Of a DNA stretch of 42,277 bases, positions 11,256-41,997 are shown piece by piece (the stretch's first letter is position 1; the number at the start of each line of letters is the position of its first letter). This DNA is from an uncultured Candidatus Melainabacteria bacterium (GTDB lineage: Bacteria > Cyanobacteriota > Vampirovibrionia > Gastranaerophilales > Gastranaerophilaceae). A program made the position numbers and the translations under genes. The stretch is from the NCBI GenBank assembly GCA_947361615.1, contig CANAJP010000009.1, positions 1 to 42,277 on the forward strand, read 5' to 3'. Below the pieces are notes generated by a model. That model had not been told where the DNA came from, ran no database searches, and saw only the letters and a list, made by a program, of their open reading frames with translations.

Positions 11256-12203
11256 ATGAGAAAATTATTTTCAAAGACATCTGCTGCATTTACCATGGCA
11301 GAAATTTTGCTGTCATTAACCATTATTGGTGTAGTTGCAGCCATTACATTACCGTCTTTAACCGGTAACATTAACGAAAGAACATGGGCTACTCAAAAGA
11401 AAGCTCTTTATGCACGTATGTCACAAGCTATTCCATTGCTTGATTCTATGAATACATACAATGACGCTGAGTCATTTATTGCAGGCGCATTGAATACTGT
11501 TACTAAGATTAACAACGTATGTTCTCAAGCTAATATTGAAGATTGCGGTATCAACAAAGATTCATTGGGACCTCTTGCGGATGGTACTCCGATTTCATTC
11601 CCTGACACCTGGTCAGCTTTAGGTATTGATAAACAGTTTGAGTATGATTCAGCTGCAGCATCATCTAATACTTCTTTAGCTGCAAATACTAATAATGCAA
11701 TGGTTGCTGCGTTTGAAACAGGTAACGGTGAGTCTATCGTGCTTTACTACAACCCGGATTGCGTTCCTGATCAGGAACAAGCTCCAAACACATTGACTGA
11801 GGCTGATCCACTTGATATGTTTGATAACGTTTGTATTAACATGATTTATGACTTGAACAATAACAAAGGGCCTAACACAGTTGGTAAAGATATCGGTTTC
11901 ATGACGGTATTCTATCCTACAGATTCTACTGTTGTTGCTCCTGTTCCGTATGTCCAATCTATGACTGCTGGTTCTACCTGTGATTCTGAATACAGACTTC
12001 CGAATAAATTTGAAGCTACAGCAATGGCTTTGAATGGTAAATTGATTAAATCCTCTGGTGAAACTTATTTGACATCATCTAAAGGTGCTACAGGTACAAC
12101 GACCTATACTTACGTTCAAAAACCATTGGCTAGTGGTGAACTTCCAATGTATGCAACAGATGGTTCTACTTCAGGTATTGCTTCACGTTGCGTAAAACGT
12201 TAA
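11256..12203 (+). CDS. Type IV pilin-like / pseudopilin protein
   Basis: A 315-residue protein with a short prepilin leader (MRKLFSKTSAA), processing just before FTMAEILLSLTIIGVVAA, and Glu at +5. The residue before the cleavage point is Ala rather than the usual Gly. The extracellular part has paired cysteines (NNVCSQANIEDCG; C-terminal SRCVKR), probably disulfides. It is a paralogue of the gene at 21, nearly identical over the first 45 residues and again around NLYDLNxxKGPNTVGKDIGF-like text, but diverging elsewhere. It has its own strong promoter and terminator, suggesting a highly expressed single gene. Pilus assembly genes are not in the window. Confidence 0.88.
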   Translation: MRKLFSKTSAAFTMAEILLSLTIIGVVAAITLPSLTGNINERTWATQKKALYARMSQAIPLLDSMNTYNDAESFIAGALNTVTKINNVCSQANIEDCGINKDSLGPLADGTPISFPDTWSALGIDKQFEYDSAAASSNTSLAANTNNAMVAAFETGNGESIVLYYNPDCVPDQEQAPNTLTEADPLDMFDNVCINMIYDLNNNKGPNTVGKDIGFMTVFYPTDSTVVAPVPYVQSMTAGSTCDSEYRLPNKFEATAMALNGKLIKSSGETYLTSSKGATGTTTYTYVQKPLASGELPMYATDGSTSGIASRCVKR

Positions 12204-12307: not shown

Positions 12308-14032
12308 ATGGTAAAAGCTTGCGAGAAAAACAAAAAAGATATTTTGAAAATTATTTCTTTGTTGACTGATAGAGAGGCGGTTCAAGCTTTGGCGTCAATT
12401 AAAGCGTTGTCTGACGAGCTGCATTCGCAAAACTGCGTGGAACTTAACTCTGAATGTATGAGCTTAATGGGGTTCGCAAACTATCTCGCTGATAAAAATA
12501 ATTTTAAATCTTCTCTGGAAACTATCAATGAAGCGGCGTTTTTAGCAGCTTATAACAAAAATGTTTCGGCAAAACTTCTCAACGAATTTGTTCTTGGTGA
12601 ATTGAATTTCGCGGAAGGTGATGCAAAAGTTGCGTTGAAGCATTATCGTAATGCGCAGGAACTTTCTGCAGAAAAAAATATCGAGTATGATATTACTGAT
12701 ATGTTGACAATACGGGTAAGCCAGATTAATAACGGTCTGGATTTTTCGCACCCTGTAAAAGCGGATCCGCTAGTCTCTCTTGTTAAAATCGGACGTTCGA
12801 TTTCTGCATTGACTGATATTAAGGTGCTTTTAAAAGTTATTGCCGAAGAAACAAAAAATGCTATTCAGGCCGACCGTTGCACTGTTTTTTTGTGGGACAA
12901 AGAAACGGATGAACTCTGGTCAATGGTTGCGCTCGGAATGGGAAGTGAAGAAATTCGTTTTCCGGCTAGTAAGGGCCTTGCGGGTTATGTCGCTAAAACC
13001 GGAGAAAGTATTAATATTAAAGACGCTTACAATGACAAGCGTTTTAACCCCGAAGTTGACTTGAAGACCGGATATAAAACCAATACGATTTTGTGCTTGC
13101 CTATAAAAAATAATAATCAGGAAATAATCGGTGTATTTCAGGTTTTGAACAAGTTAAAAGGCACGTTTACGAAGAGTGATGAAGATTTGCTCGTCGCAAT
13201 CGGCGGAAGCGCAAGCATTGCTCTGGAAAACGCACAATTGTTTGCACAACAGGAAGAGCTTTATAAAGAACAAAAAGAACTTTTTGAAAGCTTTATTGAT
13301 ACGCTTGCAACCTCTATAGATGCGCGTGATAAGATTACGGCAGGTCATTCTTTGCGTGTAAAACTTTATTCTGTTTTAATTGCCCGCAAAATGGAATTAT
13401 CAGAAAAAGACATCGCTTTGATTGAAAAAGCAGCGATTTTGCACGATATCGGTAAAATCGGGATTATGGATTCTGTTTTGCAAAAAGAGGGTAAGCTTAC
13501 ACCTGAAGAGTATGCGCATATTCAGGAACACGCAAGAATTACGCATGATATCTTAGATAAAATTCACATGTCAAAAGATTTCAAAGTTATTACGGAAATT
13601 GCCTGCTCTCACCACGAAAAATTCAACGGTGCAGGTTATTATCGTGGTTTGAAAGGTGAGGAAATTCATCTGGGCGGAAGAATTCTTGCGGTTGCGGATG
13701 TGTTTGACGCGATTACGTCAAAACGCCACTATCGTGACAGAATGCCTATTATGAACGTTATAAACATTCTTTTGAAAGATTCCGGAACGCATTTTGACAA
13801 AGCAATTGTTGATGTGTTTATGTCGGTTCCTTTGCTCGAGTTAATTCAGGTATTTTTGAGCGAAAATCCGGACAAAATGCTTGAAGCAAAGGACGTCAAG
13901 GTTCTTGCTGACTCTTGTCTTACAGATTTGTATAAGGCAGGAAACAGCGAAAAACAAACTAAAAAACAACAAAAACTTATTGAGGTTTTTGAAAACTATT
14001 ATGCATGTAAAAATGGGGCAGGTACAGACTAA
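12308..14032 (+). CDS. GAF and HD-GYP domain signalling protein (probable cyclic-di-GMP phosphodiesterase)
   Basis: A 574-residue protein. Residues about 30-140 form a TPR-like helical region. A GAF domain spans about 155-315 (ADRCTVFLWD ... GLAGYVAKTGE ... IIGVFQVLNK), and a short coiled coil leads to an HD-GYP domain (about 335-500). The metal site ILHDIGKIGI is intact, as is AVADVFDAITSKRHYR. The name-giving motif reads HHEKFNGAGYYRG, so GYP has become GYY and the usual Asp is Asn. Activity on cyclic-di-GMP is therefore likely but not certain. No membrane segment is seen. It is the first gene of a run with TPR and response-regulator genes, 3 bases before the next start. Confidence 0.88.
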   Translation: MVKACEKNKKDILKIISLLTDREAVQALASIKALSDELHSQNCVELNSECMSLMGFANYLADKNNFKSSLETINEAAFLAAYNKNVSAKLLNEFVLGELNFAEGDAKVALKHYRNAQELSAEKNIEYDITDMLTIRVSQINNGLDFSHPVKADPLVSLVKIGRSISALTDIKVLLKVIAEETKNAIQADRCTVFLWDKETDELWSMVALGMGSEEIRFPASKGLAGYVAKTGESINIKDAYNDKRFNPEVDLKTGYKTNTILCLPIKNNNQEIIGVFQVLNKLKGTFTKSDEDLLVAIGGSASIALENAQLFAQQEELYKEQKELFESFIDTLATSIDARDKITAGHSLRVKLYSVLIARKMELSEKDIALIEKAAILHDIGKIGIMDSVLQKEGKLTPEEYAHIQEHARITHDILDKIHMSKDFKVITEIACSHHEKFNGAGYYRGLKGEEIHLGGRILAVADVFDAITSKRHYRDRMPIMNVINILLKDSGTHFDKAIVDVFMSVPLLELIQVFLSENPDKMLEAKDVKVLADSCLTDLYKAGNSEKQTKKQQKLIEVFENYYACKNGAGTD

Positions 14033-17995: not shown

Positions 17996-19168
17996 ATGAG
18001 TACGCAAACTGCTAATATCGTTAATAATAAGAATTTATCGTATCAGTATGACTGGTTTCAGAAAACATTTCCGCCGGTCGTGCAGCAGGTTTTTGACAAT
18101 TTTTTTGAGCAGGATTTCAAATTTTCCCTGCTGGGAATTTGCAAAAACGTAAATTCTATTGTTGATAAAGCTGCATATTTTGTTACGAAGGTTAAGATTG
18201 ATAAGCAGCATGATGTGTTCTTTCGTATTTCCGAAACATCTATTGGCTTAATACTTGAGAGGGTTTTGGGCCGACCTAATAACCCGTTTGATTTGAACAA
18301 GTTGACAGAATTGGAAACAAAGATAGTTACTACATTCAATGATTGTCTGTTCAGGGCTGTTGTAGGTTTCCTTAAACCTGCACCGCCAACCCTTGCAAGA
18401 ACTAATTTTGATGTGATTTATCTTGTTTTTGTCTTAACAGATCAGGAAAGCGGAAAATCAGGAAGATTTGTTATTACATTGCCTGATGTTCTGTTAGAAC
18501 CGGAAACTATTCAAATGCAAGAAGATTTTCCGGTTGAACAATTTGAAAAAAGTACAATTTCTGCGCGGCTTGATGTTGGAAAAACTGTTTTTAAGCTTCA
18601 TGAAGTTAAACATCTTGAAGTTGATGATATGGTGGTTTTTGAAAACAGCAGCACGGATAAATTACGATTAAATTTCAGGGATTGGGAAACTGATGTATTA
18701 TTGAAACCGAATTTGAGTTTGGTTGTGCCAATTGATAACGATGGAGGTTCTGAGGTGTCAGAAAATGAAAATATAAATATTTGGGACAGTATTGAGGTAG
18801 AAATGGTTGGCCATTTTGATGCTGTTGATATTACGCTGGGTGAATTGAAGAAGATTCAAGCCGGAATGGTCGTTGATTTAGCTTCTATTTATCAAAACAA
18901 AGTAACATTAACGGTAGAAGATAAACCGATTGCCTCCGGTGAACTGGTTATTATTAACGATAAATACGGTGTAAAGATTACGGAAGTTCATGCTCCGAAA
19001 CCTGTAGAAGAAGTTTATGCTCCTGCGTCTGGTGGGGATGTTGAAGAATCTTCTATCGTGTCGCAGGATGAAGAAAATAATGATTTTCCAGAGGTGACGG
19101 CAGGTGAAGGAAGCGATGATGATGAAGAATTCGATTATAGCGATTTCGATTTAGAGGAGGATATATAG
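17996..19168 (+). CDS. SpoA-domain switch/sorting-platform protein (FliM/FliN/SctQ-like)
   Basis: A 390-residue protein. An N-terminal domain (1-180) of CheC/FliM-middle or SctQ type is followed by two SpoA-like domains at about 185-250 and 262-335 (SIEVEMVGHFDAVDITLGEL ... GELVIINDKYGVKI). An acidic tail ends the protein (about 350-390, EEFDYSDFDLEEDI). In flagella or injectisomes this family forms the cytoplasmic ring that receives cargo. The usual CheY-binding N-terminal motif of FliM is not seen, so an SctQ-like or fused FliM/FliN role is likely. The direct neighbours are FliO, FliP, FliQ and FliR. The ribosome binding site is GAGGG. Confidence 0.75.
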   Translation: MSTQTANIVNNKNLSYQYDWFQKTFPPVVQQVFDNFFEQDFKFSLLGICKNVNSIVDKAAYFVTKVKIDKQHDVFFRISETSIGLILERVLGRPNNPFDLNKLTELETKIVTTFNDCLFRAVVGFLKPAPPTLARTNFDVIYLVFVLTDQESGKSGRFVITLPDVLLEPETIQMQEDFPVEQFEKSTISARLDVGKTVFKLHEVKHLEVDDMVVFENSSTDKLRLNFRDWETDVLLKPNLSLVVPIDNDGGSEVSENENINIWDSIEVEMVGHFDAVDITLGELKKIQAGMVVDLASIYQNKVTLTVEDKPIASGELVIINDKYGVKITEVHAPKPVEEVYAPASGGDVEESSIVSQDEENNDFPEVTAGEGSDDDEEFDYSDFDLEEDI

Positions 19169-19169
19169 A

Positions 19170-19559
19170 ATGACTTCGTATCTTTTGACTTTTACGGTTT
19201 ATACAACAGCGATGGTGGGTGTGATTTTCCTTGCTCTCTTCGCTTATAAAAAGTTTTCGTTACAAAACAATCGCGTTTCCAACTCTAATTTTTTAGAGAT
19301 AGAGGATTGCGTAACACTTGGCGTGCGTAAACAATTGTATGTCGTAAGAGCCGGAGAAGAAAAGTTTCTGATTGCATCAGACGCTGAAAGGACGACTTTC
19401 CTTTCTAAGTTGAATTCTGAATCTATTCAAAAGCCACACAAAGAAATTACATCTTATGATGCAATCGGTCACTTTTACCCTGAAGAAGAACGTGAAAACG
19501 TTAGAAAAGATGCAACGGCTGTATTGAGAAATATCATTAGTACCGGAGAAAGAAGATAA
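19170..19559 (+). CDS. fliO: FliO-like export assembly protein
   Basis: A 129-residue protein with one N-terminal membrane segment (about 5-26), then a cytoplasmic domain starting near FLEIEDCVTLGVRKQLYVVRAGEEKFLIA, the typical FliO pattern. In flagella FliO helps FliP assemble. It starts 1 base after the SpoA gene stop and its last base is the first base of fliP (TAATG). Position and topology support the call more than sequence identity. Confidence 0.75.
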   Translation: MTSYLLTFTVYTTAMVGVIFLALFAYKKFSLQNNRVSNSNFLEIEDCVTLGVRKQLYVVRAGEEKFLIASDAERTTFLSKLNSESIQKPHKEITSYDAIGHFYPEEERENVRKDATAVLRNIISTGERR

Positions 19560-20218: not shown

Positions 20219-20713
20219 ATGGAACTTATGGTTGAATATTTAGCAAGAGGCTTTCTGGTGATGCTTTCGATTTCTATGCCGTGCGTACTGGTTGCAGCGG
20301 GTATAGGTCTTGTTGTCGGTATTTTACAGGCGGTAACGCAGGTTCAAGAGCAAACAATTGCCGCTGCTCCTAAAATCCTCGGCGTTTTTCTTGTAATCAT
20401 TATCGCGGGTTATACGTTTATGAATTCCTTAAGCAATTTTTTTATTCAAGGGATGGGAATTGCTTTTAATGTTTTACCTAAGAACGATAGTTTTGTTTTG
20501 TCTTCAGATTATTACAAATATACAACGCCTTTTCAGGGGGAAATGGATGCGGATAAATTCAAAAATGTGCCTGATATCAACGAGATTATGAAAAATCCGG
20601 GTAAGGTTCCATATATTGATAAGTATGAAAAAGCGCGTTATCACGGAACCCCGCGTACTCCAATGCCTCGTCCTAATTTAATTGAAACTAATCAGATTTT
20701 GAGAGGACAATAA
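20219..20713 (+). CDS. fliQ: Type III export gate protein FliQ/SctS with long C-terminal extension
   Basis: Residues 1-87 are a typical two-helix FliQ (ISMPCVLVAAGIGLVVGILQAVTQVQEQT). The family normally ends near there, at about 88 residues. Here a further 75 residues or so follow (about 88-164), polar and Pro/Tyr-rich (YYKYTTPFQGEMDADKF ... GTPRTPMPRPN). No frameshift separates the two parts. The tail may reach the periplasm or cytoplasm and act as a plug or docking arm; this is inference. Confidence 0.9.
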   Translation: MELMVEYLARGFLVMLSISMPCVLVAAGIGLVVGILQAVTQVQEQTIAAAPKILGVFLVIIIAGYTFMNSLSNFFIQGMGIAFNVLPKNDSFVLSSDYYKYTTPFQGEMDADKFKNVPDINEIMKNPGKVPYIDKYEKARYHGTPRTPMPRPNLIETNQILRGQ

Positions 20714-20714
20714 T

Positions 20715-21047
20715 ATGAGATTAGCTTTGTTCTTTGCGCTGTTTGCATTTGCCCTTCCGGCGTTTGCGGCTGAAAATTATATAATGCTTGCGGATTTTCC
20801 TATCAAGAAAGTTGTTGTTCGTGACGATGAAATCCTTGCTGCAGCGTCTGTTTTCACGCTTGATAATGAAAAACGTCAGACAATACTTACGCCTAAGGTT
20901 GAAAACGGGGAAACACTTTTGTTTTTGCTTCTTGCTGATGGTGAATTAAAAGTTGATGTGACGATTAAAGATGGAGTTATGTCGCTGGACAAAAAGAGAG
21001 GATTGAAGCTTTTTGAATTGGACTTGCCGGAGGTTGATGAAGAATAA
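20715..21047 (+). CDS. Small secreted protein inside the export-gate cluster
   Basis: A 110-residue protein with a clean signal peptide (MRLALFFALFAFALPAFAA), then a small beta-rich domain with an acidic end (LPEVDEE). I recognise no family. It lies between fliQ (1-base gap) and fliR (1-base overlap), so it is translated with the export gate and probably acts at or near it in the periplasm. It does not resemble FlhB. Confidence 0.75.
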   Translation: MRLALFFALFAFALPAFAAENYIMLADFPIKKVVVRDDEILAAASVFTLDNEKRQTILTPKVENGETLLFLLLADGELKVDVTIKDGVMSLDKKRGLKLFELDLPEVDEE

Positions 21048-21832
21048 TGGGCGGGTTTGATTTTTTGACAGAATTGGTGAAAATTTTTCCGGAATTGGAC
21101 AAGTGTTTGATTGCCGGAATTTTGATTTTCTCACGTCTGCTTGGGTTCGCCAGATGGGCGCCGATTTTGAATAGAAAAGAAATCCCAGGTATGGTGAAAC
21201 TTTGCCTTGTATTCATTCTGACGATAACGCTTACGATGGTTGCGAAACCTGATGGCCAATTATTGCAGGATTCGTTATTGCTCGGAATTGTTTTGAACTT
21301 TGTCGTTGGCGGGCTTTTAGGGTATGTTGCGCAGGTGATTTTGATTGCGATTGAGGCTGGCGCGGATATGATTAATATGCAAATGGGGCTTTCTTCTGCG
21401 ATGGTTCTTGATCCTACAACATCAAGTCAGGTGTCTATTCTGGGGAAATGTTTTTCGCTCTTTGCCCTGTGTATTTTTATCCATATTGGCGGATTTTATT
21501 GGATGATGAACGCGTTTGTAAGAAGCATGGAAATTTTTCCGATTTATGCGACATCTATTCCGCTTGATAAAATTGTTAATTTGGATTATCTGGTAAAGAT
21601 TACATCGAATGTCCTTTATATGGGGCTTCAACTGGCGTCTCCAGTGCTTCTTGCAACACTCGGACAAGATATTATTCTGGGCGTAATCTCCAAAACAGCG
21701 CCGCAGGTTAATGTTTTCCAATTAAGCTTCCTGTTCAAACCTGTTTTAGGCGCTGCGATTATGGTTTGGATTTTGCCTATGCTGTTTAATATTATTCAGG
21801 ATTATTTAACTTCGTATAGCGGAATTTTCTAA
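21047..21832 (+). CDS. fliR: Type III export gate protein FliR/SctT
   Basis: A 261-residue protein with at least five membrane segments and the FliR pattern (IFSRLLGFARWAPILNRKEIPGMVKL; GADMINMQMGLSSAMVLDPTTSSQ). It completes the FliPQR gate. Its 3' end overlaps the convergent UbiA-family gene by 4 bases, so the run ends here. flhB and a full-length flhA are not in the window. Confidence 0.92.
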   Translation: MGGFDFLTELVKIFPELDKCLIAGILIFSRLLGFARWAPILNRKEIPGMVKLCLVFILTITLTMVAKPDGQLLQDSLLLGIVLNFVVGGLLGYVAQVILIAIEAGADMINMQMGLSSAMVLDPTTSSQVSILGKCFSLFALCIFIHIGGFYWMMNAFVRSMEIFPIYATSIPLDKIVNLDYLVKITSNVLYMGLQLASPVLLATLGQDIILGVISKTAPQVNVFQLSFLFKPVLGAAIMVWILPMLFNIIQDYLTSYSGIF

Positions 21833-26212: not shown

Positions 26213-27691
26213 TTATAATTCCTCGAAAATTTCAATCGGTGCGTAGAACGAAACTTCTTCGCGGGAAAGCACTGAAACCTCGTTGAAATAGCTTGAAAGC
26301 ATTTTGAATATTAGGTGACGGAATTCTAACGGAACGATAATCGTTCTGCAATCGTATTTATTCATCAGCTTTTCAATTTTTTTCGCAAGTTGGTCTGCAT
26401 ATTTTGCGTCAATTCTGATGATTTCTTCGTCATCGTCTTCCTCGACGGCTGTTTCGCAAATATTTAGGAGTGAATCTTCGGTGATTTCGATTGCATTAAT
26501 CACGCCGTCCTCGTTAACGTAGTTTTTAGAAATCTGGCGGCCGATTGAAAGACGTAATTTGCGCAAAATGTCTGTTTTGTCGCTGTCGTTTGCAAAATCG
26601 TTGATTTTTTCTAAGATAAACGTAATGTCTTTTATTGAAACTCGTTCGTTAATCAGGCTTGTCAAAATATAGCGCAAGTCCCCTAACGACAGGAATTCCG
26701 GAATAAGGTTTTCGATTAAGTATGAATTGTTTTCGTCTACGACTTCGATGTAGTTGTCAAGTTCGTTGTAGTCAAGAATTTCATCAACAAACTTAATCGC
26801 AATAAATTCAAGAGCGCGGGTTATGCATTGAGCGCCTGAAAGCCCTTTTTCCCAGAAATCTTTGCATTTTTCTTTATCAATCCAGACGATTTTTTTGCCG
26901 GAAATTGTGTCGACGTCATAGATCGCGTCTTTAATTTTCTTATTAGTTAAAAGATTGTCCGTGAAGAACATCAGGTGGTTCGGGTAAACCATTCCGCGAA
27001 AAACTTCCAGTCCGCGAATTTTTATTGTGTATTCGTACGGGTTAAGCGTTTCATCGTCTTTGAAAATAATTTTTGGAATAACATAACCGAGTTCTTCAGT
27101 AAGTTTGAGTCGAAGTTTGACGGTTTCTGCGACGAGTTCCTCTTCGTCGATATCTTGCTCTGCGTCGATATAGCCGAGAATTTCTTCACTCAATGAGATT
27201 GCGAGTTTGTCTTCGCGTAATTTTTTATACATTCCATCAGGTGAAGTCGTCTCAGCAAGCTGGCGTTTTAATTCTTCAAGTTCTTTGAGTCCTGAAGAGA
27301 TTTTATCATTCAGGCGTTTTCTGCCAATTGACGCTGGAACTTCGTTTTCGAGTTCTTTTTTTGCGCGGGTGATTTTTCCCTTAACCTCTTTAATTTTGTG
27401 TTGAATTTCAAGGCAGGCTTCGTAAGGGGTCAGGGTTGGTGAAAGAAGTTTTTCCATCTGGCTTTTGAAGTTAGAAATATTGATTTCATCCGTGTTTTTG
27501 GAGTAGTTTTCATCCTCTGCTTCTCTCATAAAAATGCAGTTGTACTGGTAGCCCTCATCCACTTCAACTTCGTTGATAGTGTAGAGTTCCCAACCGTTCA
27601 TAGACATTTCGTTCAAAAGGTTTTGAAGCGCTTGTGTGTCTTCGCTGGAACAGGTTTTAATAACATATTGCATTTTCTTGTTTTTAAACAT
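26213..27691 (-). CDS. Soluble protein with FlhA/SctV-like cytoplasmic domain
   Basis: A 492-residue protein. Residues 7-57 resemble DUF4177 (MQYVIKTCSSED ... NGWELYTINEVE). Residues about 65-180 are charged helices, likely a coiled coil. From about 185 to the end it follows the cytoplasmic domain of FlhA: ELGYVIPKIIFKDDE, YEYTIKIRGLEVFRG, ITRALEFIAIKFVDEIL, then LIPEFLSLGDLRYILTSLI and ERVSIKDITFILEKI. The membrane-spanning N-terminal half of FlhA is absent. It may be a cargo-docking or decoy form of the export gate ring. The ribosome binding site is AGGGAG. Its closeness to fliOPQR supports a link to secretion. Confidence 0.75.
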   Translation of the reverse strand: MFKNKKMQYVIKTCSSEDTQALQNLLNEMSMNGWELYTINEVEVDEGYQYNCIFMREAEDENYSKNTDEINISNFKSQMEKLLSPTLTPYEACLEIQHKIKEVKGKITRAKKELENEVPASIGRKRLNDKISSGLKELEELKRQLAETTSPDGMYKKLREDKLAISLSEEILGYIDAEQDIDEEELVAETVKLRLKLTEELGYVIPKIIFKDDETLNPYEYTIKIRGLEVFRGMVYPNHLMFFTDNLLTNKKIKDAIYDVDTISGKKIVWIDKEKCKDFWEKGLSGAQCITRALEFIAIKFVDEILDYNELDNYIEVVDENNSYLIENLIPEFLSLGDLRYILTSLINERVSIKDITFILEKINDFANDSDKTDILRKLRLSIGRQISKNYVNEDGVINAIEITEDSLLNICETAVEEDDDEEIIRIDAKYADQLAKKIEKLMNKYDCRTIIVPLEFRHLIFKMLSSYFNEVSVLSREEVSFYAPIEIFEEL

Positions 27692-34108: not shown

Positions 34109-35182
34109 ATGGCAGAGATTAAAAAACGCGTTAAGAAAAATGGCAAAATTAGTTACACGGCATCTATAAGAATTAAAGGTTATCCGACAATGAGTGCAAC
34201 CTTTGAACGTTTGACGGACGCTAAAACATGGATTGGTGAACATGAAAGTAAAATGAAACGCGGCAAGAAAATTAAATATGCTGAGGCTATCAAGCATACA
34301 TTAAGCGAACTCATAGACCGATATATTGAAGAAGAGTTGCCAAATCGCAAATCAGACCAAGCAAAATTTAAAATGCAACTGGGTTGGTGGAAAGAAAGGA
34401 TAGGAGCCTATTTGCTTTCAGAAGTTACTCCAAGCCTTTTATCACAGTGCAAGGATACTTTGTCTAAGGAGCCAAGTTTACACCCCGTAAAAGGACGTAC
34501 AACGCGTTCTGGTGCCACTATTAACCGATATATGGCTTGTCTTTCTATTGTGTTTTCCCTTGCTGTTAATGAATGGGAATGGATGGAAGAAAATCCTATG
34601 CTTAAAGTTTCTAAAAAGCCGGAAACACGTGGGCGTGTTAGATATTTAAGTGAAGAGGAAAAAAGAAATCTGTTAGCAGAATGCAAGAAAATTTCAAAAG
34701 AATTGTATTTGCTTGTTTTAATTGCTGTAACATCCGGTGCAAGACATGGGGAAATTATTAATTTGAAATGGCAAAATATAGATTTTAATAATAGGTTGTA
34801 TCATTTTCTTGATACAAAAAATGGTGAAGATAGAGGCGTGCCGATTTCACACATCGCTTTACAAGAACTCAAAGAGTTTTCAAAAGTTCGTAATATTAAA
34901 ACGGATTATGTTTTTGGCAACAAAGACGGAAAATTGATGTATTTGACAGATAAATTTGAAAAAGCTGTTGAACTAGCGGGAATAACAGATTTTCATTTCC
35001 ACGATTTAAGACATACCGCGGCAAGCTATTTAGCGATGAATGGTGCAAGTTTACTTGAAATCGCTGAAATTCTAGGGCATAAAACCCTTGCAATGGTAAA
35101 AAGATATTCACACCTAACACAAAAGCACACCGCAAGCCTTATTGATAAGATGACAGAAAAGGAATTTGGCGGCTTTGCTTGA
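34109..35182 (+). CDS. int: Tyrosine recombinase (integrase)
   Basis: A 357-residue protein. The N-terminal arm-binding domain (MAEIKKRVKKNGKISYTASI) is followed by a SAM-like core-binding domain (about 70-165) and the catalytic domain. Catalytic residues are visible: Arg in SGARHGEI, His-x-x-Arg in FHDLRHTAAS, His in LGHKTLAM and the nucleophile Tyr in VKRYSHLT. It should catalyse integration at the tRNA-Met half and excision. AGGG precedes the ATG. Confidence 0.95.
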   Translation: MAEIKKRVKKNGKISYTASIRIKGYPTMSATFERLTDAKTWIGEHESKMKRGKKIKYAEAIKHTLSELIDRYIEEELPNRKSDQAKFKMQLGWWKERIGAYLLSEVTPSLLSQCKDTLSKEPSLHPVKGRTTRSGATINRYMACLSIVFSLAVNEWEWMEENPMLKVSKKPETRGRVRYLSEEEKRNLLAECKKISKELYLLVLIAVTSGARHGEIINLKWQNIDFNNRLYHFLDTKNGEDRGVPISHIALQELKEFSKVRNIKTDYVFGNKDGKLMYLTDKFEKAVELAGITDFHFHDLRHTAASYLAMNGASLLEIAEILGHKTLAMVKRYSHLTQKHTASLIDKMTEKEFGGFA

Positions 35183-35460
35183 TTCGTTTTATATGAATGT
35201 AAAGGTTTGTAAATATTCTCACTATTTTGTGTTATAAAGTTTTAAAAATTTGGAATGCTATTAGTAGGTAAAATATTCTTCTTTTAAATTTTAAAGGAAA
35301 TTCCTTTTATATCTTTTGAAGAATTTTATATTAAGGGAAAAGAAAAATTGAGAAAATTTTTTCTATTTATTTTTCATTGTATTGGAGAATATTTAATAGT
35401 TATTAATTATGAATATAGTTTTACAAAATGATATGATTTTACAAACAGAAAGCAGGTATA

Positions 35461-35676
35461 ATGAGTTTAAATAACAATCTGTTGACACTTCAGCAATTCA
35501 ACGAGCTTTACCCGGCATTTACTTTGGGAACGTTACGAAGATTGATTTTTAATGCAAGTAATAATGGTTTTAATAAAGTTATAAGACGTATCAGTCCGAC
35601 AGGTGGTCGAGGACGGATATTTATTAATGTATCAGCGTTCTTTGAATGGGTAGAAGAACAAAACAGCGTAGCCTAG
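35461..35676 (+). CDS. Small excisionase-like / AlpA-type DNA-binding protein
   Basis: A 71-residue protein. It has a winged-helix pattern (LLTLQQFNELYPAFTLGTLRRLIF ... GRIFINVSAFFEWVEEQ, split here) as in excisionases and MerR-like helix-turn-helix proteins of mobile elements. It lies 278 bp after int, on the same strand. It probably sets recombination direction or regulates the next gene. Confidence 0.7.
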   Translation: MSLNNNLLTLQQFNELYPAFTLGTLRRLIFNASNNGFNKVIRRISPTGGRGRIFINVSAFFEWVEEQNSVA

Positions 35677-35688
35677 AAAGGAGTTAAT

Positions 35689-35991
35689 ATGGCAGATAGT
35701 TCAAAATATTATATGGTTTGGGATTGGACAAGAGAGCGGTTAGGGTTTAAAAATCATGCCGAAATGATTGTGTTTAATTTCGTTTACGGATTAAATCTGA
35801 ATGATAAATTTTATCGAGGTTCTGCAAAATATCTAGCGGACCATGCTTGCACATCAATAAGTACAATACGTCGTGCGGTTAAAAGTTTGGCGCAAAGAGG
35901 TTTGATTTCAGTGGAGTACGGGAAATGCCCTGCTGGAAAATGTTGGATTTTGAATGTTCTTGTTAATGAAGAAGATGATTTTGCTGGATAA
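35689..35991 (+). CDS. Winged-helix DNA-binding protein of phage/plasmid replication type
   Basis: A 100-residue protein. The pattern MIVFNFVYGLNLNDKFYRGSAKYLADH followed by SISTIRRAVKSLAQRGLISVEYG matches the N-terminal winged-helix domains seen in replication initiators and other mobile-element proteins. Only that domain is present, so it may be a regulator or a shortened initiator. Ribosome binding site AAAGGAG. It is 12 bases after the previous gene. Confidence 0.72.
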   Translation: MADSSKYYMVWDWTRERLGFKNHAEMIVFNFVYGLNLNDKFYRGSAKYLADHACTSISTIRRAVKSLAQRGLISVEYGKCPAGKCWILNVLVNEEDDFAG

Positions 35992-36394
35992 GGTAAAGAT
36001 TTAGATTTGTCGTTTGATAATGATTTGTTATACTAACGGTTTTGATGTTTTTGACATGTTGTCAGTATGGATATTCAGAGTAGTCATTGTGATTAGTCTG
36101 AGTATTCACGGTGGTCGATTATATAATATTAATATGATATAGATAATATATTGCGTTGTTTACACGTTTTCTTAGACTATAAAGGATAAGGGAACGTGTA
36201 TTAAATAATATCTAAAAGCAATGCCTTATGGCATAGCTAACACCCCACCCCCAATTTGCGCGGCACCCCCTCCCCATGGGGTAAGGAATATATGCGCGTT
36301 TTTATGAGTATAAAATATACGCTTTTCTGTCATATATCATCTGCCATTTTCAACCTATAAATGCTTATTTGTCATGGTAATGTGTTGCTGTATA
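35992..36394. other. 403-bp gene-free stretch of the element
   Basis: No convincing coding frame. It holds a possible promoter (TTGTCG at 36007-36012, TATACT at 36029-36034, 16-bp spacer) and a palindrome like the XRE operators (ACATGTT at 36054-36060). It also holds AT-rich steps around 36120-36155 and a C-rich block at 36243-36275. It could contain the replication or transfer origin of the element, or a non-coding RNA. Confidence 0.4.
36243..36281. other. C-rich block able to form a G-quadruplex on the minus strand
   Basis: Four C runs lie at 36243-36246, 36248-36252, 36266-36270 and 36272-36275, ending in the palindrome CCCCATGGGG. The surroundings are strongly AT-rich. On the minus strand this gives four G runs with loops of 1, 13 and 1 bases. 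Confidence 0.5.
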
Positions 36395-36718
36395 TTATAG
36401 TAAAGATTTGACTAATTTATATAAAATTTGTAATCTATCCTTATCAGACTTTAGAAATTCAACTTTCTGAATAATATAATTATACATATCGTCTTCTTTA
36501 TTATCATTAAACGTAAAAAGTTCATTCGGTGTAATGTCAAGAAGTTCAATAATTTTTTCAAGAGTTTGGGCTGTCATAAAAGCATTGCCCGTTTCAATAC
36601 TACTTAGAGTGTTAGTTGCAATACCTATTTTTTCGGCGAACGATTCTTGACTGAATCCTTTGATTTTTCTAAGGTTTTGGATTCGTTTACCTAATTGTTG
36701 TTGAATATAATTTTTCAT
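36395..36718 (-). CDS. XRE-family repressor-like regulator
   Basis: A 107-residue protein. The helix-turn-helix (LGKRIQNLRKIKGFSQESFA, then KIGIATNTLSSIETG) spans about residues 9-65, and a short helical tail probably dimerises. The start at 36718 (MKNYIQQQ) follows GAGG; the longer frame to 36778 crosses the operator. It is the only minus-strand gene of the element and is divergent from the cargo, the usual layout of a master repressor. Confidence 0.88.
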   Translation of the reverse strand: MKNYIQQQLGKRIQNLRKIKGFSQESFAEKIGIATNTLSSIETGNAFMTAQTLEKIIELLDITPNELFTFNDNKEDDMYNYIIQKVEFLKSDKDRLQILYKLVKSLL

Positions 36719-36773
36719 TAAACTAACCTCAAAATAATTATAAAAGGGAAATTGAACTAATCTAACAATGTTT

Positions 36774-36808
36774 AACATGTTGACGATACAGCCAAAACAT
36801 GTTATAAT
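36774..36808 (+). promoter_or_regulatory. Cargo promoter with twin palindromic operators
   Basis: TTGACG (36780-36785), 17 bp and TATAAT (36803-36808) form a near-consensus promoter. Identical palindromes AACATGTT lie at 36774-36781 (over the -35) and 36796-36803 (touching the -10), exactly 22 bp apart, two helical turns. They are probably bound by the divergent XRE protein. Confidence 0.75.
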
Positions 36809-36835
36809 TGATTTTAGATAGAAAGGATTATTAAA

Positions 36836-37105
36836 ATGGATTATGAATTAATTACTGAATTTAGAACTTTGCTAGATGAATTTTCACGCGTGCATGATAT
36901 AACGCTTTCGAGCCTATATCCATTTAGTGCAAACTGTGAAACCATTGCTGTTATGGGTTTGCAGGATGAAACAGAGAAACTTGAACAAGATTTAAAAGAT
37001 TATATTACTACTCGAAGACAGGATTTAACCTACGGATGTACAATTTCCGAGTTCCATATAGATAACGAACCGCCTAAAATGGTTTTGGTGTTTAATATTG
37101 AATAG
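36836..37105 (+). CDS. Small protein of unknown function, first cargo gene
   Basis: An 89-residue acidic protein without signal peptide or membrane helix; helical start, beta-rich end (YGCTISEFHIDNEPPKMVLV). Ribosome binding site AAAGG. Directly controlled by the operator-bearing promoter, so it is presumably an early or regulated gene, like lambda Cro-position genes, but it has no recognisable helix-turn-helix. Confidence 0.65.
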   Translation: MDYELITEFRTLLDEFSRVHDITLSSLYPFSANCETIAVMGLQDETEKLEQDLKDYITTRRQDLTYGCTISEFHIDNEPPKMVLVFNIE

Positions 37106-37128
37106 TAGAATAAAAAGTGAGGAATAAT

Positions 37129-37392
37129 ATGAAAAAATTTTTAGTTATGTTTGTTTTGATGTCTGCATTTATCGCTAATGGTGCATTTGCTTATTATAAT
37201 TATCCAAGTGGTAATCCAATAATAAATGAACAACGACAAGTTGCAAATCAACAACGAATGATGGAAATGCAAAGACAGCAAATTAAACAACAAGAAGAAA
37301 TGTTGCGAATTCAACGACAAAGAGAAAACGCACGCTTAGACGCACAATTACGCAAAAATGGACTTAATTCTGTTCCTATGGGCAGATATTAA
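37129..37392 (+). CDS. Small secreted Gln-rich coiled-coil protein
   Basis: An 87-residue protein. The signal peptide (MKKFLVMFVLMSAFIANGAFA) is followed by a Gln/Arg/Glu-rich helix (residues about 40-75, QQRMMEMQRQQIKQQEEM). The start at 37129 has GAGG before it; the upstream GTG is unlikely. It is predicted to be periplasmic. No family recognised. Confidence 0.72.
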   Translation: MKKFLVMFVLMSAFIANGAFAYYNYPSGNPIINEQRQVANQQRMMEMQRQQIKQQEEMLRIQRQRENARLDAQLRKNGLNSVPMGRY

Positions 37393-37412
37393 TTTTATTT
37401 TGAGGAATAAGA

Positions 37413-37805
37413 ATGAATAAAATAATTATTCTCTGGTCTGTTTTACTATTTGCAGTTCCAGCTTATGCTACTAATTGGGTTGAAGTCGCAAGTGGAACGT
37501 ATATAGATATAGATAGTATTAAGCGTAACGTAAGTCAAGGCGAATTAATTACTATATATTGGGTCAAAGATTTAAATAGGCGGGCAAAAATTGAAGAACT
37601 TTTGAATAAAAAAACTAGTAAAGTGATACATAAAGAAGTAACTTATTGCGGTCGTAGAATTAATATCATTTTAGAATCTTATGTATATGATGAACAAGAT
37701 TCGCTTATTCGTTCATATACATTCTATGATGTTGGGACACTTAATCATCGTAGTATTGTACCAGATAGTGTTGGTGAAGCAATATATGATTTTGTATGTA
37801 AGTAG
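37413..37805 (+). CDS. Secreted protein, possibly surface-adhesin E-like
   Basis: A 130-residue protein. It has signal peptide MNKIIILWSVLLFAVPAYA, then WVEVASGTYIDIDSIKRNVSQ and an IYWVKDL strand, a pattern like the small beta-rich domains annotated as surface-adhesin protein E. Two cysteines (YCGR and FVCK) could form a disulfide. It follows the previous secreted gene by 20 bases and ends the first cargo cluster. Confidence 0.6.
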   Translation: MNKIIILWSVLLFAVPAYATNWVEVASGTYIDIDSIKRNVSQGELITIYWVKDLNRRAKIEELLNKKTSKVIHKEVTYCGRRINIILESYVYDEQDSLIRSYTFYDVGTLNHRSIVPDSVGEAIYDFVCK

Positions 37806-37844
37806 CCTTATAGACTTTGACTAGGACAACAGAAAGGATAACTA

Positions 37845-38735
37845 ATGAGCGAATCACTAGAGAATTTAATAGAGGATAATAACATAACCTTTGACGATGT
37901 TGGCGGATTGGAAGATTTAAAAGAGGAAATTCGTTTAAGTATTATTTATCCATTCAAAAATCCTGATTTGTATATTCAATATGGCAAGAAAGCTGGCGGA
38001 GGTTTACTTTTATATGGTCCTCCGGGATGTGGCAAAACTTATATTGCCAAAGCTACTGCAAATGAATGCGAGGCTTCTTTTATAAACATTTCACTTGTTG
38101 ATGTGCTAGATATGTATGTTGGTGAATCGGAAAGAAAGTTGCATGAAATATTTAATCTTGCAAGAAGAAAGTCGCCGTCAGTAATTTTTATTGATGAAGT
38201 GGATGCACTCGGCAATGATAGAATGAAAACAGGAACTAATGTTACAGCTAGAACCCTCGTAAATCAGTTTTTAACAGAGCTTGACGGAGTTGCAAGTAAT
38301 AACAACCAAATTATGGTAATAGGCTCGACAAACGTACCTTGGTTTGTTGATACCGCATTAAAACGTCCAGGACGTTTTGATAAAACATTATTTGTTCCTC
38401 CACCAGAATTACAAACAAGAGCAGATATTTTCAAGTTGAATTTAGCAGGAAAACCTGTTTCGCAAATAGATTATAATAAATTAGCAAATAACACAAAAGA
38501 GTTTTCCCCGGCGGATATAGTTGCAGTATGTCGTGTTGCAATTGATAATGCAATTAGAAAAGCAATAAAAACAGGTGAAAAAGATTTACTTACCACAGAA
38601 TCGCTATTGGATGCGATAAAAGAGGTTAAACCGTCAACAATAGAGTGGTTTGAAACGGCAAAGAATTATGTCAAGTATAGCAACCAAAGCGGTCACTATG
38701 ATGATGTTATGCGTTATCTAAATAAAAGGTTATAA
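37845..38735 (+). CDS. AAA+ ATPase of the Vps4/Cdc48/FtsH-like group
   Basis: A 296-residue single-ring AAA protein. It has DDVGGLEDLKEEI at the start, Walker A GPPGCGKT (58-65), pore-loop region MYVGESERKL, Walker B VIFIDEVDAL, sensor STNVPW and arginine-finger RPGRFD. A short C-terminal helical tail follows (WFETAKNYVKYSNQSGHYDD). There is no protease domain, substrate domain or membrane helix. Such rings unfold or remodel proteins. It is followed after 2 bases by a membrane TPR protein, which is the likely partner. Ribosome binding site AAAGGA. Confidence 0.88.
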   Translation: MSESLENLIEDNNITFDDVGGLEDLKEEIRLSIIYPFKNPDLYIQYGKKAGGGLLLYGPPGCGKTYIAKATANECEASFINISLVDVLDMYVGESERKLHEIFNLARRKSPSVIFIDEVDALGNDRMKTGTNVTARTLVNQFLTELDGVASNNNQIMVIGSTNVPWFVDTALKRPGRFDKTLFVPPPELQTRADIFKLNLAGKPVSQIDYNKLANNTKEFSPADIVAVCRVAIDNAIRKAIKTGEKDLLTTESLLDAIKEVKPSTIEWFETAKNYVKYSNQSGHYDDVMRYLNKRL

Positions 38736-38737
38736 TA

Positions 38738-39631
38738 ATGATACCTAATGTTGAACAGGTTTATAATAAAGCTACTATTGCAATCCAATTAAGAAAATAT
38801 AATGTTGCAGAACAATTATTACAAGAGCTATTAACCCAAAATCCTAATGATTCATGGGTGTATATTTTAATGGGCGCAATATGGTATAATAGATGTGATT
38901 ATGGTCATGCTATTGAATTTATAAAACAAGCTATTGCCCTTGACACAAGTTGTCCTGATTATTATAGAGTATATTGTTCTTGTTTGAATGCAAGTGGAGA
39001 GTATCAAGAAGCATTAAGTGTTTCAGATGAGGGACTAATGTTGGACCCTACTCACGTAAGATTAATGTATGAAAGAGCTTTGGCACTAAAAGCTCTTGGT
39101 AAACTTGATAGAGCTGAAGACGTCACAAAATATTTGTTAAAAAAAGACCCCAATAATGATAGTAATCATAATCTTTTGGCTACAATATATGCCGAAAAAA
39201 GTCAGCTAGATGAAGCAAATTTGGAATTCTTAAAAGCATTAGAGTTAAACCCTAATAATTCAGGAACTTATAACTCTTATGCAATGATGAAGTTTAATAA
39301 AGAAGAAAACAAAGAGGATGAGTCTATAGAAATGCTACAGGAATCTTTACGTCTTAATCCTGAAAACAAAACTGTTCAAAAAAATTTAGAGTATGTAATT
39401 AATTATAAAAAACGGAAGCCTTTTAATAATTTTATATTTATAATACTTTGTTGTTTATTTGTTATTTTGGGAATTTCAATTTTTGGTTATTATATTTATG
39501 ATTTAATTGCTATTCAAAAAATGCCAATAACACATGTAATTATATGTTTAGTTATAGGTGTAATATGGCAAATCATAGAATATTATTTAAAGTCACGCAA
39601 AAAGCAAGAATCTACTGCTTCAAACAATTAA
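38738..39631 (+). CDS. Membrane-anchored TPR protein
   Basis: A 297-residue protein. About five or six tetratricopeptide repeats fill residues 5-215 (for example WVYILMGAIWYNRCDYGHAI; LLATIYAEKSQLDEANLEF). Two C-terminal membrane helices (about 226-248 and 255-277) and a basic tail follow. The TPR region therefore faces the cytoplasm. It is coupled to the AAA gene, so the pair may form a membrane-bound remodelling or sensing complex. Confidence 0.82.
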   Translation: MIPNVEQVYNKATIAIQLRKYNVAEQLLQELLTQNPNDSWVYILMGAIWYNRCDYGHAIEFIKQAIALDTSCPDYYRVYCSCLNASGEYQEALSVSDEGLMLDPTHVRLMYERALALKALGKLDRAEDVTKYLLKKDPNNDSNHNLLATIYAEKSQLDEANLEFLKALELNPNNSGTYNSYAMMKFNKEENKEDESIEMLQESLRLNPENKTVQKNLEYVINYKKRKPFNNFIFIILCCLFVILGISIFGYYIYDLIAIQKMPITHVIICLVIGVIWQIIEYYLKSRKKQESTASNN

Positions 39632-39719
39632 ATTATTAATTTTTTGTTTATTTTTCGTATAATTATTCAAATATCGTAAATAATAACAATATAAATGCTA
39701 AACTAATGGGAGAAAGAAA

Positions 39720-40319
39720 ATGGCGAACTTGATATTTGAAAAATTTGCAGACTATGTTTTAAAAAAAGAAAAATATAAGAAAAGTTTTGTACATCAAACA
39801 ATTAATCAGGGTAAGTATGAACCTCAACAAGATTATTATTTGCAACTACGAACAAGATTAATTTCTTTACTTAGAAAAAATATACCATTAAATGAATTAG
39901 AAAATATAATAGGTAATATATCAGAGAGAAAAACTGGTAACTATACAACATTAATTGAAAATATACAAAGTTTTTTAAATGGAAAGCGCTATAAGTGGGT
40001 TGAACCTATAAAAAATGAGATTGATTATTCTGGTTTAACTATAAAAGTAAATCCTGAAATAGGACTTGAATTAGATGGAACAATATACTATATAAAAATG
40101 TATTTTAAGCAAAAAGAAATAAGCATTCAAAAGGTTAGTATATTAGAAAAGATGATGCAAGATGCTTGTAAAACTGAAACGGTAAATGTTAAACTTGCGA
40201 TATGGGATATAAGACGTTGTAAAATTTATTCTAAGGAATCTGAAGAAGAAATATCTATTGATTATGACTTACAAAAAGAAGCCTTAAGTTGGCTTAAGTA
40301 TGCAAACGATGAGGCTTAA
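39720..40319 (+). CDS. Protein of unknown function in the element
   Basis: A 199-residue protein. A helical N-terminal half is followed by a beta-rich part with IGLELDGTIYYIKMYFKQKEIS. This has the E..D....K spacing seen in some degenerate PD-(D/E)xK nuclease-like folds, but the match is not strong enough to assign. There is no signal peptide. Ribosome binding site GGGAGAAAG. It stands between the AAA/TPR pair and the kinase pair and could belong to either. Confidence 0.65.
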   Translation: MANLIFEKFADYVLKKEKYKKSFVHQTINQGKYEPQQDYYLQLRTRLISLLRKNIPLNELENIIGNISERKTGNYTTLIENIQSFLNGKRYKWVEPIKNEIDYSGLTIKVNPEIGLELDGTIYYIKMYFKQKEISIQKVSILEKMMQDACKTETVNVKLAIWDIRRCKIYSKESEEEISIDYDLQKEALSWLKYANDEA

Positions 40320-40371
40320 AATGTGTATTTCTTGAATATAATATATTTTAATGGTAGCATGGTGATGTTAT

Positions 40372-40392
40372 ATGACTAATATGGGTTCTTAA
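40372..40392 (+). CDS. Six-codon frame that may couple translation to the kinase
   Basis: ATG at 40372, preceded by GGTGAT, opens a six-codon frame ending TAA two bases before the GTG start of the kinase. The kinase has no ribosome binding site of its own, so re-initiation after this mini-frame is a possible mode of translation. Confidence 0.25.
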   Translation: MTNMGS

Positions 40393-40394
40393 AA

Positions 40395-41321
40395 GTGGCA
40401 AAAAATATTGAGCTGGTACAAATTAATAATAAAGATTGGACAGAAATTCAAGGCTTCTCATCTAAAGGTCGAAGAGTTAAATCTTGGTATGAAAGAGTAA
40501 GTTCAAGAGAAGTCTTTTTATACAAAGAGCCTAAAATATATTCAAGTACTAACTTTGTTACGAAGGAAATTTGGACAGAATACATTGCATACAAATTAGG
40601 GACTTTTTTAGGCTTAAATATTCCTGAAGCTATTCCTGCTACGGATGGCGAACATTATGGTATTTTAATAAAAAGTTTTTTAGAAAGAGGGGAGGCTGGT
40701 ATGCCAGCTATTGAATTAGCCGAGGCTAGTGATATACTTCACCATTTGAACTCTAAGCAGCCTCATAATCTTAGTACTATCAAACTTTTATTGCATACGG
40801 AGATGCTAGAAAAAGATTCTTGGGAAAATTTTAAACGTATGCTTATTTTTGATTGCCTTATAGGAAATAACGATAGACACGATGAAAACTGGGGCTTGTT
40901 ATATGGTTCAGCGATTTCTCAGATACGATTAGCGCCTATATATGACAATGCATCTTGTTTAACTTCTGGCGAGAATGAGGAAAAGGTAGAAAAATTGTTA
41001 CAAAATGAAACCATGTTAAATCAGTATATAAATAATAGCAAGCCTCCTAATTTATATTTAAATACTAGTGATAGTACGCATTACAAGCATTTTGAGATAA
41101 TACAATATTTAATTGATAAAGAGCAGAATAGTACAGTTGATTTAATTGGGGATATAGTAAAAAAAGATTATTTGAGTTATACTAAATATGTTCTAGAACA
41201 AATACATCATATAGATGTCCCAGATTTGTATAAATTAAGTGATAATAGGGTTGAATTAATTTATAAAATATTAGAACTAAGAAAGAAAAAACTAGAGGAA
41301 TTAATTAATGTGTACATTTGA
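40395..41321 (+). CDS. HipA-like Ser/Thr kinase
   Basis: A 308-residue protein. The ATP-site Lys is in EVFLYKEPK, the helix-C Glu in WTEYIAYKLG, the catalytic loop is FDCLIGNNDRHDENWGLL, and the metal-binding Asp is in LAPIYDNASCL. These fit the HipA/CtkA-type kinase fold. The HipA N-terminal subdomain is missing, as in HipT of three-gene HipBST systems. GTG start without ribosome binding site. It overlaps the HIRAN gene by 14 bases, so the two are coupled. Confidence 0.8.
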   Translation: MAKNIELVQINNKDWTEIQGFSSKGRRVKSWYERVSSREVFLYKEPKIYSSTNFVTKEIWTEYIAYKLGTFLGLNIPEAIPATDGEHYGILIKSFLERGEAGMPAIELAEASDILHHLNSKQPHNLSTIKLLLHTEMLEKDSWENFKRMLIFDCLIGNNDRHDENWGLLYGSAISQIRLAPIYDNASCLTSGENEEKVEKLLQNETMLNQYINNSKPPNLYLNTSDSTHYKHFEIIQYLIDKEQNSTVDLIGDIVKKDYLSYTKYVLEQIHHIDVPDLYKLSDNRVELIYKILELRKKKLEELINVYI

Positions 41322-41997
41322 TACCGACAAAATTTATTTAACCTGGAGAAAAGATGTTGATAAGCGCAGGCATATTGTTGGTATATTAAATAGAACTCAA
41401 GATAATAACTATTCATTCATGTATTCAGAAAAGAATGTTATAAATGCAGTTGATGAGGACGGGTTTACTTATTATCCAGCTTTTAATGAAATTGATAAGG
41501 TATACGATGAAAATGTACTTGAAGTTTTTAAAAGACGTTTATTGAATCCTCAACGGAGAGATTATGATGATTTTTTGAATTATTGGGGCGCGGGACAATA
41601 CAAGGACGATACCTTTGCATTGTTAGGTTTAACCGGAGCGAAATTGCTTACTGATAATTTTGAATTTATTGCACCTCATTGTGAGTACCCAGCAAAGTTT
41701 AATACGGATGTTTCTTGGCTTAACATTGGTTCTGACTATATTGTAAATTCTATCAGAGCGCTAAGTAATGATGAGGTTGAGTCAAAAATTTCGTTAGAAT
41801 TGGAGCCTGATAATTTATTTGATATGAAAGCCGTAAAGGTTTTGTTTGAAGATGAAAGATTAGGTTATATCAAAAGTATTCATTGCGAAAATATTTACAA
41901 TGCAATTTCTGTTGATAGGAATGTAAATGTTAAGATTGCTAATATTATTAAAAATGGAACAATAAAAGAAGTTCTTTTAAGAATTAATATAGATTAA
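41308..41997 (+). CDS. HIRAN-domain protein, possible partner of the HipA-like kinase
   Basis: A 229-residue protein. The C-terminal part (about 150-225) matches HIRAN (ISLELEPDNLFDMKAVKVLF ... LGYIKSIHCENIYNAI), a domain that binds DNA ends. The N-terminal part (IYLTWRKDVDKRRHIVGILN ... FTYYPAFNEIDKVY) resembles the HipA N-terminal (HipS-like) subdomain, so kinase and N-domain look split across two genes with HIRAN added. AGAGG precedes the ATG. It could be an inhibitor or a targeting partner; it is the last cargo gene. Confidence 0.68.
   Translation: MCTFDTDKIYLTWRKDVDKRRHIVGILNRTQDNNYSFMYSEKNVINAVDEDGFTYYPAFNEIDKVYDENVLEVFKRRLLNPQRRDYDDFLNYWGAGQYKDDTFALLGLTGAKLLTDNFEFIAPHCEYPAKFNTDVSWLNIGSDYIVNSIRALSNDEVESKISLELEPDNLFDMKAVKVLFEDERLGYIKSIHCENIYNAISVDRNVNVKIANIIKNGTIKEVLLRINID

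Follow-up and report, generated by a model that had tools for sequence, protein, structure and literature searches.

A stand-alone FlhA cytoplasmic-domain protein in Gastranaerophilales genomes with flagellin-less export genes

In flagella and injectisomes, the ring formed by the cytoplasmic domain of FlhA (FlhA_C) selects the proteins that enter the export channel, and in known systems this ring is part of a membrane protein. The window examined here, a stretch of 42,277 nucleotides (contig C9) from a genome of 1.83 Mb in 108 contigs (95.6% complete), encodes an FlhA_C whose membrane half is missing (sFlhA; Table 1). The gene belongs to the Gastranaerophilales, gut-dwelling and non-photosynthetic cyanobacterial relatives, and raises the question of what a gate domain may do once it is detached from the gate.

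Fold and domain anatomy of sFlhA

The sFlhA frame is intact, starts with ATG, is preceded by the ribosome-binding-site-like sequence AAAGGGAG, and encodes 492 residues. Pfam family PF00771 (FHIPEP) matches all 47 orthologues, and the window protein with 165.7 bits (gathering score 29.1); the alignment is restricted to profile positions 309–653 of 657, and what a working gate has in front of this part, a membrane domain with some eight helices and the FHIPEP loop, is absent. The NCBIfam equivalog TIGR01398 scores 154.6 bits, below its cut-off of 772.1. Judged by its sequence, sFlhA is a member of the FHIPEP superfamily by descent. It is predicted to have no membrane helix, because its hydropathy maximum over 19 residues is 1.16, whereas the full-length FlhA encoded elsewhere in this genome (hereafter FlhA2) reaches 2.8. 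sFlhA is acidic (97 D/E versus 65 K/R).

An AF2 monomer model built from the 47 orthologues (pLDDT 82.7, pTM 0.65) comprises a beta-alpha-beta-beta domain (residues 7–57), a disordered stretch (60–84), a helical hairpin (89–149) and FlhA_C from residue 163. In a Foldseek search against the PDB, the top match to this model was Salmonella FlhA_C (6ch2; E=8e-21, TMt 0.84, 343 columns), with H. pylori and B. subtilis FlhA next and SctV proteins after them; model and search together place the four-domain FlhA_C fold in sFlhA. The preliminary description, which had proposed a soluble, stand-alone FlhA_C with a new N terminus and had named structure prediction as a check, is borne out in this respect. 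Working gates form a homo-nonameric ring through D1/D3 and FlhA_L; of these elements, the ring-linker motif SPDxMY, which is also present in FlhA2, and the D3 core are retained in the sequence comparison; the D1–D4 boundaries are approximate, having been set by alignment to Salmonella.

The N-terminal additions had been described as a DUF4177-like domain and a coiled coil, and both labels need some adjustment. PF13783 (DUF4177) matches residues 17–57 with 15.1 bits, below the gathering score of 25, and reaches E<=0.1 in 26 of 47 orthologues (best 0.0021); the model has a small mixed alpha/beta domain here, such that the label is suggestive: fair and real-looking, yet below the curated cut-off. 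What had been called a coiled coil is modelled as an antiparallel helical hairpin (residues ~89–149, pLDDT mostly 76–87), with C93, K99, I100, N128 and L145 invariant in the orthologue alignment. A fold search of the PDB with residues 1–158 returned nothing significant, the best match (E=0.007) being to generic TrmK/PadR-like helices. By mean column frequency the N-terminal domain is on average the most highly conserved region of sFlhA; together with D3, the best-kept part of FlhA_C, it forms the most conserved portion of the protein, and D4 is the least conserved.

Table 1 Features of the window and related loci. Coordinates refer to the window unless a locus is named; residues are those of sFlhA.
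Feature	Coordinates	Strand	Evidence
FliM/FliN-like (SpoA) C-ring protein	17996..19168	+	FliMN_C E=4.6e-18; weaker FliN, SctQ matches
FliO	19170..19559	+	PF04347 E=1.5e-7
FliP, single copy in genome	19559..20200	+	PF00813 E=1.1e-68
FliQ	20219..20713	+	PF01313 E=1.7e-19
FliR	21047..21832	+	PF01311 E=4e-49
sFlhA, 492 aa, stand-alone soluble FlhA cytoplasmic-domain protein	26213..27691	-	ORF, FHIPEP E=2.2e-48, orthologue alignment, model
Residues 6-57, beta-alpha-beta-beta domain, DUF4177-like (sub-threshold)	27521..27676	-	Profile, model
Residues 85-150, helical hairpin, helices ~89-115 and 122-149	27242..27439	-	AF2 model
Residues 151-491, FlhA_C D1-D4, opening with FlhA_L-like linker SPDxMY	26219..27241	-	Profile, Foldseek, alignment
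Residues ~236-282, D2 with altered chaperone pocket	26846..26986	-	Residues named in PMC5932034, PMC8166844
Type IV pilin-like proteins	21-1130, 11256-12203; L050:8008-9030, 12368-13366; L234:12-893

Distribution alongside a flagellin-less export system

The source genome holds a flagellar-type export set spread over several contigs. Apart from the genes in the window, FlhA2 itself (G000:C46:568-2544), the full-length copy whose presence the preliminary description had proposed checking, closes the array FliE-FliF-FliG-like-FliH-FlhA on C46 (L050), FlhB lies on C21 (L219), FliI, scoring above its curated cut-off, on C68, and FlgC with two FlgF/G-like rod proteins on C35 (L234). Outside the window, FliE, FliG-like, FliH and FlgC are named from gene order and sequence reading and not from individual profiles; the name FliF is backed by a profile match. 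No flagellin was found in this genome, and Flg_bbr_C has just two matches in it, where most flagellated relatives have seven or eight. Separately, flagellin N-terminal domains occur within very long frames in two other genomes (G016:C28:23102, 3249 aa; G024:C16:11447, 2085 aa).

Across the family, the operon FliE-FliF-FliG-like-FliH-FlhA2 is conserved, with rod genes ahead of it in two genomes, and FlhA2 (~700–735 bits to FHIPEP) is present in nearly all members, flagellated or not. A second FlhA, scoring 850–885 bits, occurs in every tested flagellin-positive genome and in none of the flagellin-negative ones; FliP is present once where there is a single FlhA and mostly twice where there are both. 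FlhA2 is thereby the gate of a coherent flagellin-less flagellar-type system (FliEFGHI, FlhAB, FliOPQR, FlgC, FlgF/G), a complete-looking set that is conserved across the order with or without a true flagellum. Earlier genome papers reported that most such organisms carry just a subset of flagellar genes, insufficient for a flagellum (PMC4040986), and the papers found on the order mention solely partial or complete flagellar gene sets.

Other genes of the window deserve brief mention. A 110-residue, Pfam-negative protein with a signal-peptide-like start is encoded between FliQ and FliR (20715-21047), and positions 34109-41997 look like an integrated element, in which a tyrosine-recombinase-like integrase precedes several small genes, HTH, AAA+ ATPase and TPR genes among them. 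Many type IV pilin-like proteins (Table 1) share the near-identical start FTMAEILLSLTIIGVVAAITLPSLTGNINERTW and have variable C-terminal parts.

An sFlhA HMM built from 16 orthologues and run on a sample of genomes of the class detected sFlhA in 142 of the 143 genomes sampled from the source family (count from the result table; metagenome-assembled genomes may miss genes, which bears on all presence and absence counts here) and in the sole genome that represents the order's other family in the sample. In sampled genomes of the class's other orders, some of which do have full-length FlhA, it matched just full-length FlhA or fragments. Fifteen orthologues are 40–58% identical to the window protein. 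Among the best 80 loci of a public genome scan, a shallow sampling of distant phyla for stand-alone FlhA_C, the titles that name an organism are Gastranaerophilales or Melainabacteria, bar a few mislabelled assemblies.

sFlhA is therefore a gene fixed throughout a lineage and not a local truncation. Its missing membrane half might suggest a truncated pseudogene or a gene-prediction artefact, an explanation to which we give almost no credence: an intact frame of 480–500 residues, with the same added N terminus and many invariant residues, occurs in ~140 genomes. A chance or decaying open reading frame is likewise excluded by these ~140 intact orthologues and their conservation over the full length.

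The link to type III export drawn in the preliminary description holds in the genomes tested. All tested sFlhA carriers have FliP, FlhB and FliI, whereas sFlhA is absent from 11 of 11 tested genomes of FliP-less families, and families with neither FlhA nor FliP have none. Flagellin is absent from 24 of 34 tested genomes of the order, sFlhA carriers included, and most tested carriers have neither flagellin nor the flagellar FlhA. The association is not without exceptions. Because three genomes have FlhA2 and no sFlhA in the FHIPEP search (G002, 98% complete, G003 and G089), sFlhA is not strictly needed; the N-terminal module is also missing from G002 and G003. Families f4, f9 and f10 have FlhA2 without sFlhA, and a free-standing N-terminal module in FlhA2-only families, which would have disclosed the module's partner, was not found in 20 genomes. 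Conversely, one genome (G045) has sFlhA with no apparent FlhA2, which is more likely an assembly gap, since FliP and FliI are there.

Parentage, hinge and chaperone pocket

In a maximum-likelihood tree, a split with 100/99 support sets flagellar FlhA, together with the FlhAs of families f5–f7, apart from sFlhA, FlhA2 and the extra copies, and an AU test rejects the grouping of sFlhA with flagellar FlhA (p=6e-6); with the long branches in this tree, the exact attachment point of sFlhA is unsure. At 17 positions sFlhA and FlhA2 agree with each other and differ from the flagellar FlhA of the same genomes, among them Salmonella positions 351 (Pro), 354 (Met), 400, 456, 552 and 558. In Salmonella the linker residues E351, W354 and D356 stabilize the ring (PMC8166844). 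FlhA2 is thus the apparent parent, and sFlhA a duplicate of its cytoplasmic domain. A further full-length FlhA, the third, was seen in one genome (L049:7722-9806(+), G072:C1; 694 aa); it is strongly diverged and fits FHIPEP well just at profile positions 266-656.

The same data bear on a service to the true flagellum, in which sFlhA would regulate the flagellar FlhA. Some carriers are indeed flagellated; however, the distribution, with most tested carriers devoid of flagellin and flagellar FlhA, strongly disfavours this role, the sequence groups apart from flagellar FlhA, and we consider it very improbable.

Since the duplication, sFlhA has diverged much faster than FlhA2_C: mean identity over seven genomes is 42.5%, versus 82.7% for FlhA2_C in the same genomes, and D3 is more acidic than in FlhA2. 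Two functional elements have changed in particular. The hinge glycine, which lies in the GYXLI motif (PMC9431611) and is present in 17 of 17 FlhA2 and all sampled flagellar FlhA proteins, is replaced by serine in 43 of 47 sFlhA orthologues (G368 in Salmonella numbering), making the same open–close hinge unlikely. The second element is the pocket that receives Salmonella FliS, FliT and FlgN together with the cargo they carry, including D456, F459, L461 and T490 (PMC5932034, PMC8166844); F459A, or substitution at D456 or L461, weakens or abolishes docking there (PMC5932034). In the window protein D261 and W270 preserve D456 and W465, whereas S264 and K266 stand in place of F459 and L461. Among the 47 orthologues D456 is kept in 44, F459 has become T/S in 46, L461 K/R in 41 and T490 R/K in 35. 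FlhA2 has an aromatic residue at 459 in 16 of 17 sequences and T490 in 13 of 17, with L461 missing there too. On these alignments, sFlhA is a protein that has lost the canonical chaperone pocket and the hinge glycine, and with the pocket residues replaced, docking of the known type at this site is unlikely.

This weighs against the idea, raised in the preliminary description, that a soluble FlhA_C competes for cargo; of the other roles offered there, a cytosolic hub or a regulator, either may apply. As a decoy or storage platform, free FlhA_C would compete with FlhA for chaperone–cargo complexes at the D1–D2 pocket, and in known systems FlhA_C by itself is indeed the chaperone-docking unit (PMC5932034); the equivalents of D456 and W465 are also retained. 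Yet F459, L461 and T490 are replaced in most sFlhA proteins, with FlhA2 mostly retaining the aromatic residue and T490, and we regard competition at the known site as unlikely.

Possible roles and comparison with known systems

In the loci read, sFlhA never adjoins the FlhA2 operon, which counts against a function with the export machine. Its neighbours are metabolic or envelope genes (for example, BamA/OmpH/nucleoside phosphorylase, PSP1 or ClpP) that differ between genera, and an operon with export genes was rejected; a promoter and terminator scan of the gene region gave results near chance. A mobile origin was also rejected: viral contigs hold no relative, phage and plasmid matches are weak (22–27% identity among the matches listed, with query coverage below 80% everywhere), and those plasmid matches that carry an annotation are ordinary FlhA.

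This lack of synteny, together with the fast divergence and the loss of pocket and hinge, would fit an exaptation in which the FlhA_C fold was recruited as a cytosolic scaffold or regulator outside export, its co-occurrence with export genes reflecting the order-wide fixation of both. We hold this to be possible, if rather doubtful, given that sFlhA is confined to export-positive genomes, that sister paralogues fuse FlhA_C to a FliG-like domain, and that the ring domain D3 is still the best-kept part of its FlhA_C.

Instead, the co-distribution of sFlhA with FliP, FlhB and FliI, including in flagellin-less genomes, supports the reading that sFlhA is probably a cytoplasmic accessory of the FlhA2 export machine. 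Here the cytoplasmic domain of FlhA2 would have been duplicated and cut loose from the membrane, and a new N-terminal domain and helical hairpin would have been added to the freed FlhA_C. The product may be a cytosolic partner of the FlhA2 machine. With its retained D1/D3 surfaces and its FlhA_L-like linker it would either join the FlhA2_C ring or build a separate one, and its N-terminal module may bind a different partner, be it cargo or a part of the C-ring or the ATPase. In substrate sorting, sFlhA would then serve as an adaptor or a regulator and not as a decoy for known chaperones. Ring joining is not assured, because of the fast divergence and the more acidic D3, and to the joint reading, a freed FlhA2_C duplicate with a new N terminus acting on substrate sorting, we give about an even chance.

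Further FlhA_C copies were observed in the family. Miniature proteins of 212–296 residues, whose alignment skips D2 and stops before D4 (D1 and D3 only), occur in several genomes (L214, L227, L228, L229, L230, L231, L233, L236, L237, L238), some with an N-terminal hydrophobic segment. Two fusions of ~593 residues (L224:4042-5823(-) and L225:3133-4911(+)) combine a FliG-like N-domain, hydrophobic segments and a D2-less FlhA_C, and both adjoin a histidine kinase and a response regulator; two more forms carry hydrophobic segments. The FliG-like protein encoded in the FlhA2 operon has an N-terminal domain that both fusions match (E=5.5e-21, with an HHalign probability of 98.7%, and E=6.8e-19). This match is the strongest indication that FlhA_C copies other than the gate itself are tied to the export machine in this lineage. 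Tentatively, the near-universal sFlhA, the miniatures and the FliG-like fusions might form a family of FlhA_C paralogues, freed from the membrane or anchored anew, that serve the Gastranaerophilales flagellin-less system by acting in the cytosol as interchangeable platforms for sorting or by regulating the gate, a proposal that we think possible and no better than doubtful.

No description of a stand-alone FlhA_C was found in the literature searched, and hence no earlier one of a membrane-free FlhA_C as part of flagellar-type export; the fold family itself is known. A free, altered FlhA_C in flagellin-less exporters offers a natural test that may separate ring surfaces needed for sorting from those needed for energy use, and it draws attention to a secretion system of common gut bacteria, as yet uncharacterised, that had been passed over as an incomplete flagellar set (PMC4040986).

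Compared with FlhA and SctV proteins, sFlhA shares the FlhA_C fold with its four domains (E~1e-20 against that of Salmonella), the FlhA_L-like linker and core residues such as R391, W465, E547, S550 and R579; it differs in having no membrane domain or FHIPEP loop, a serine for Gly368, a replaced pocket, an extra N-terminal domain and hairpin, and a gene that lies in no export operon. Its likeness to FlhA2 extends to the shared residues at 351, 354, 400, 456, 552 and 558, whereas FlhA2 retains the membrane half, the hinge glycine and the aromatic residue of the pocket, and shows roughly twofold higher conservation. A precedent for such an event is FlhX, a stand-alone paralogue of the FlhB cytoplasmic domain that can replace cleaved FlhB_C. 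FlhX is listed among flagellar secretion proteins (PMC9321776). As with FlhX, a soluble paralogue of an export-gate cytoplasmic domain occurs together with the full-length gate, here in nearly all family genomes; in contrast to FlhX, the gate protein concerned is FlhA, not FlhB, and sFlhA has lost the known docking surface.
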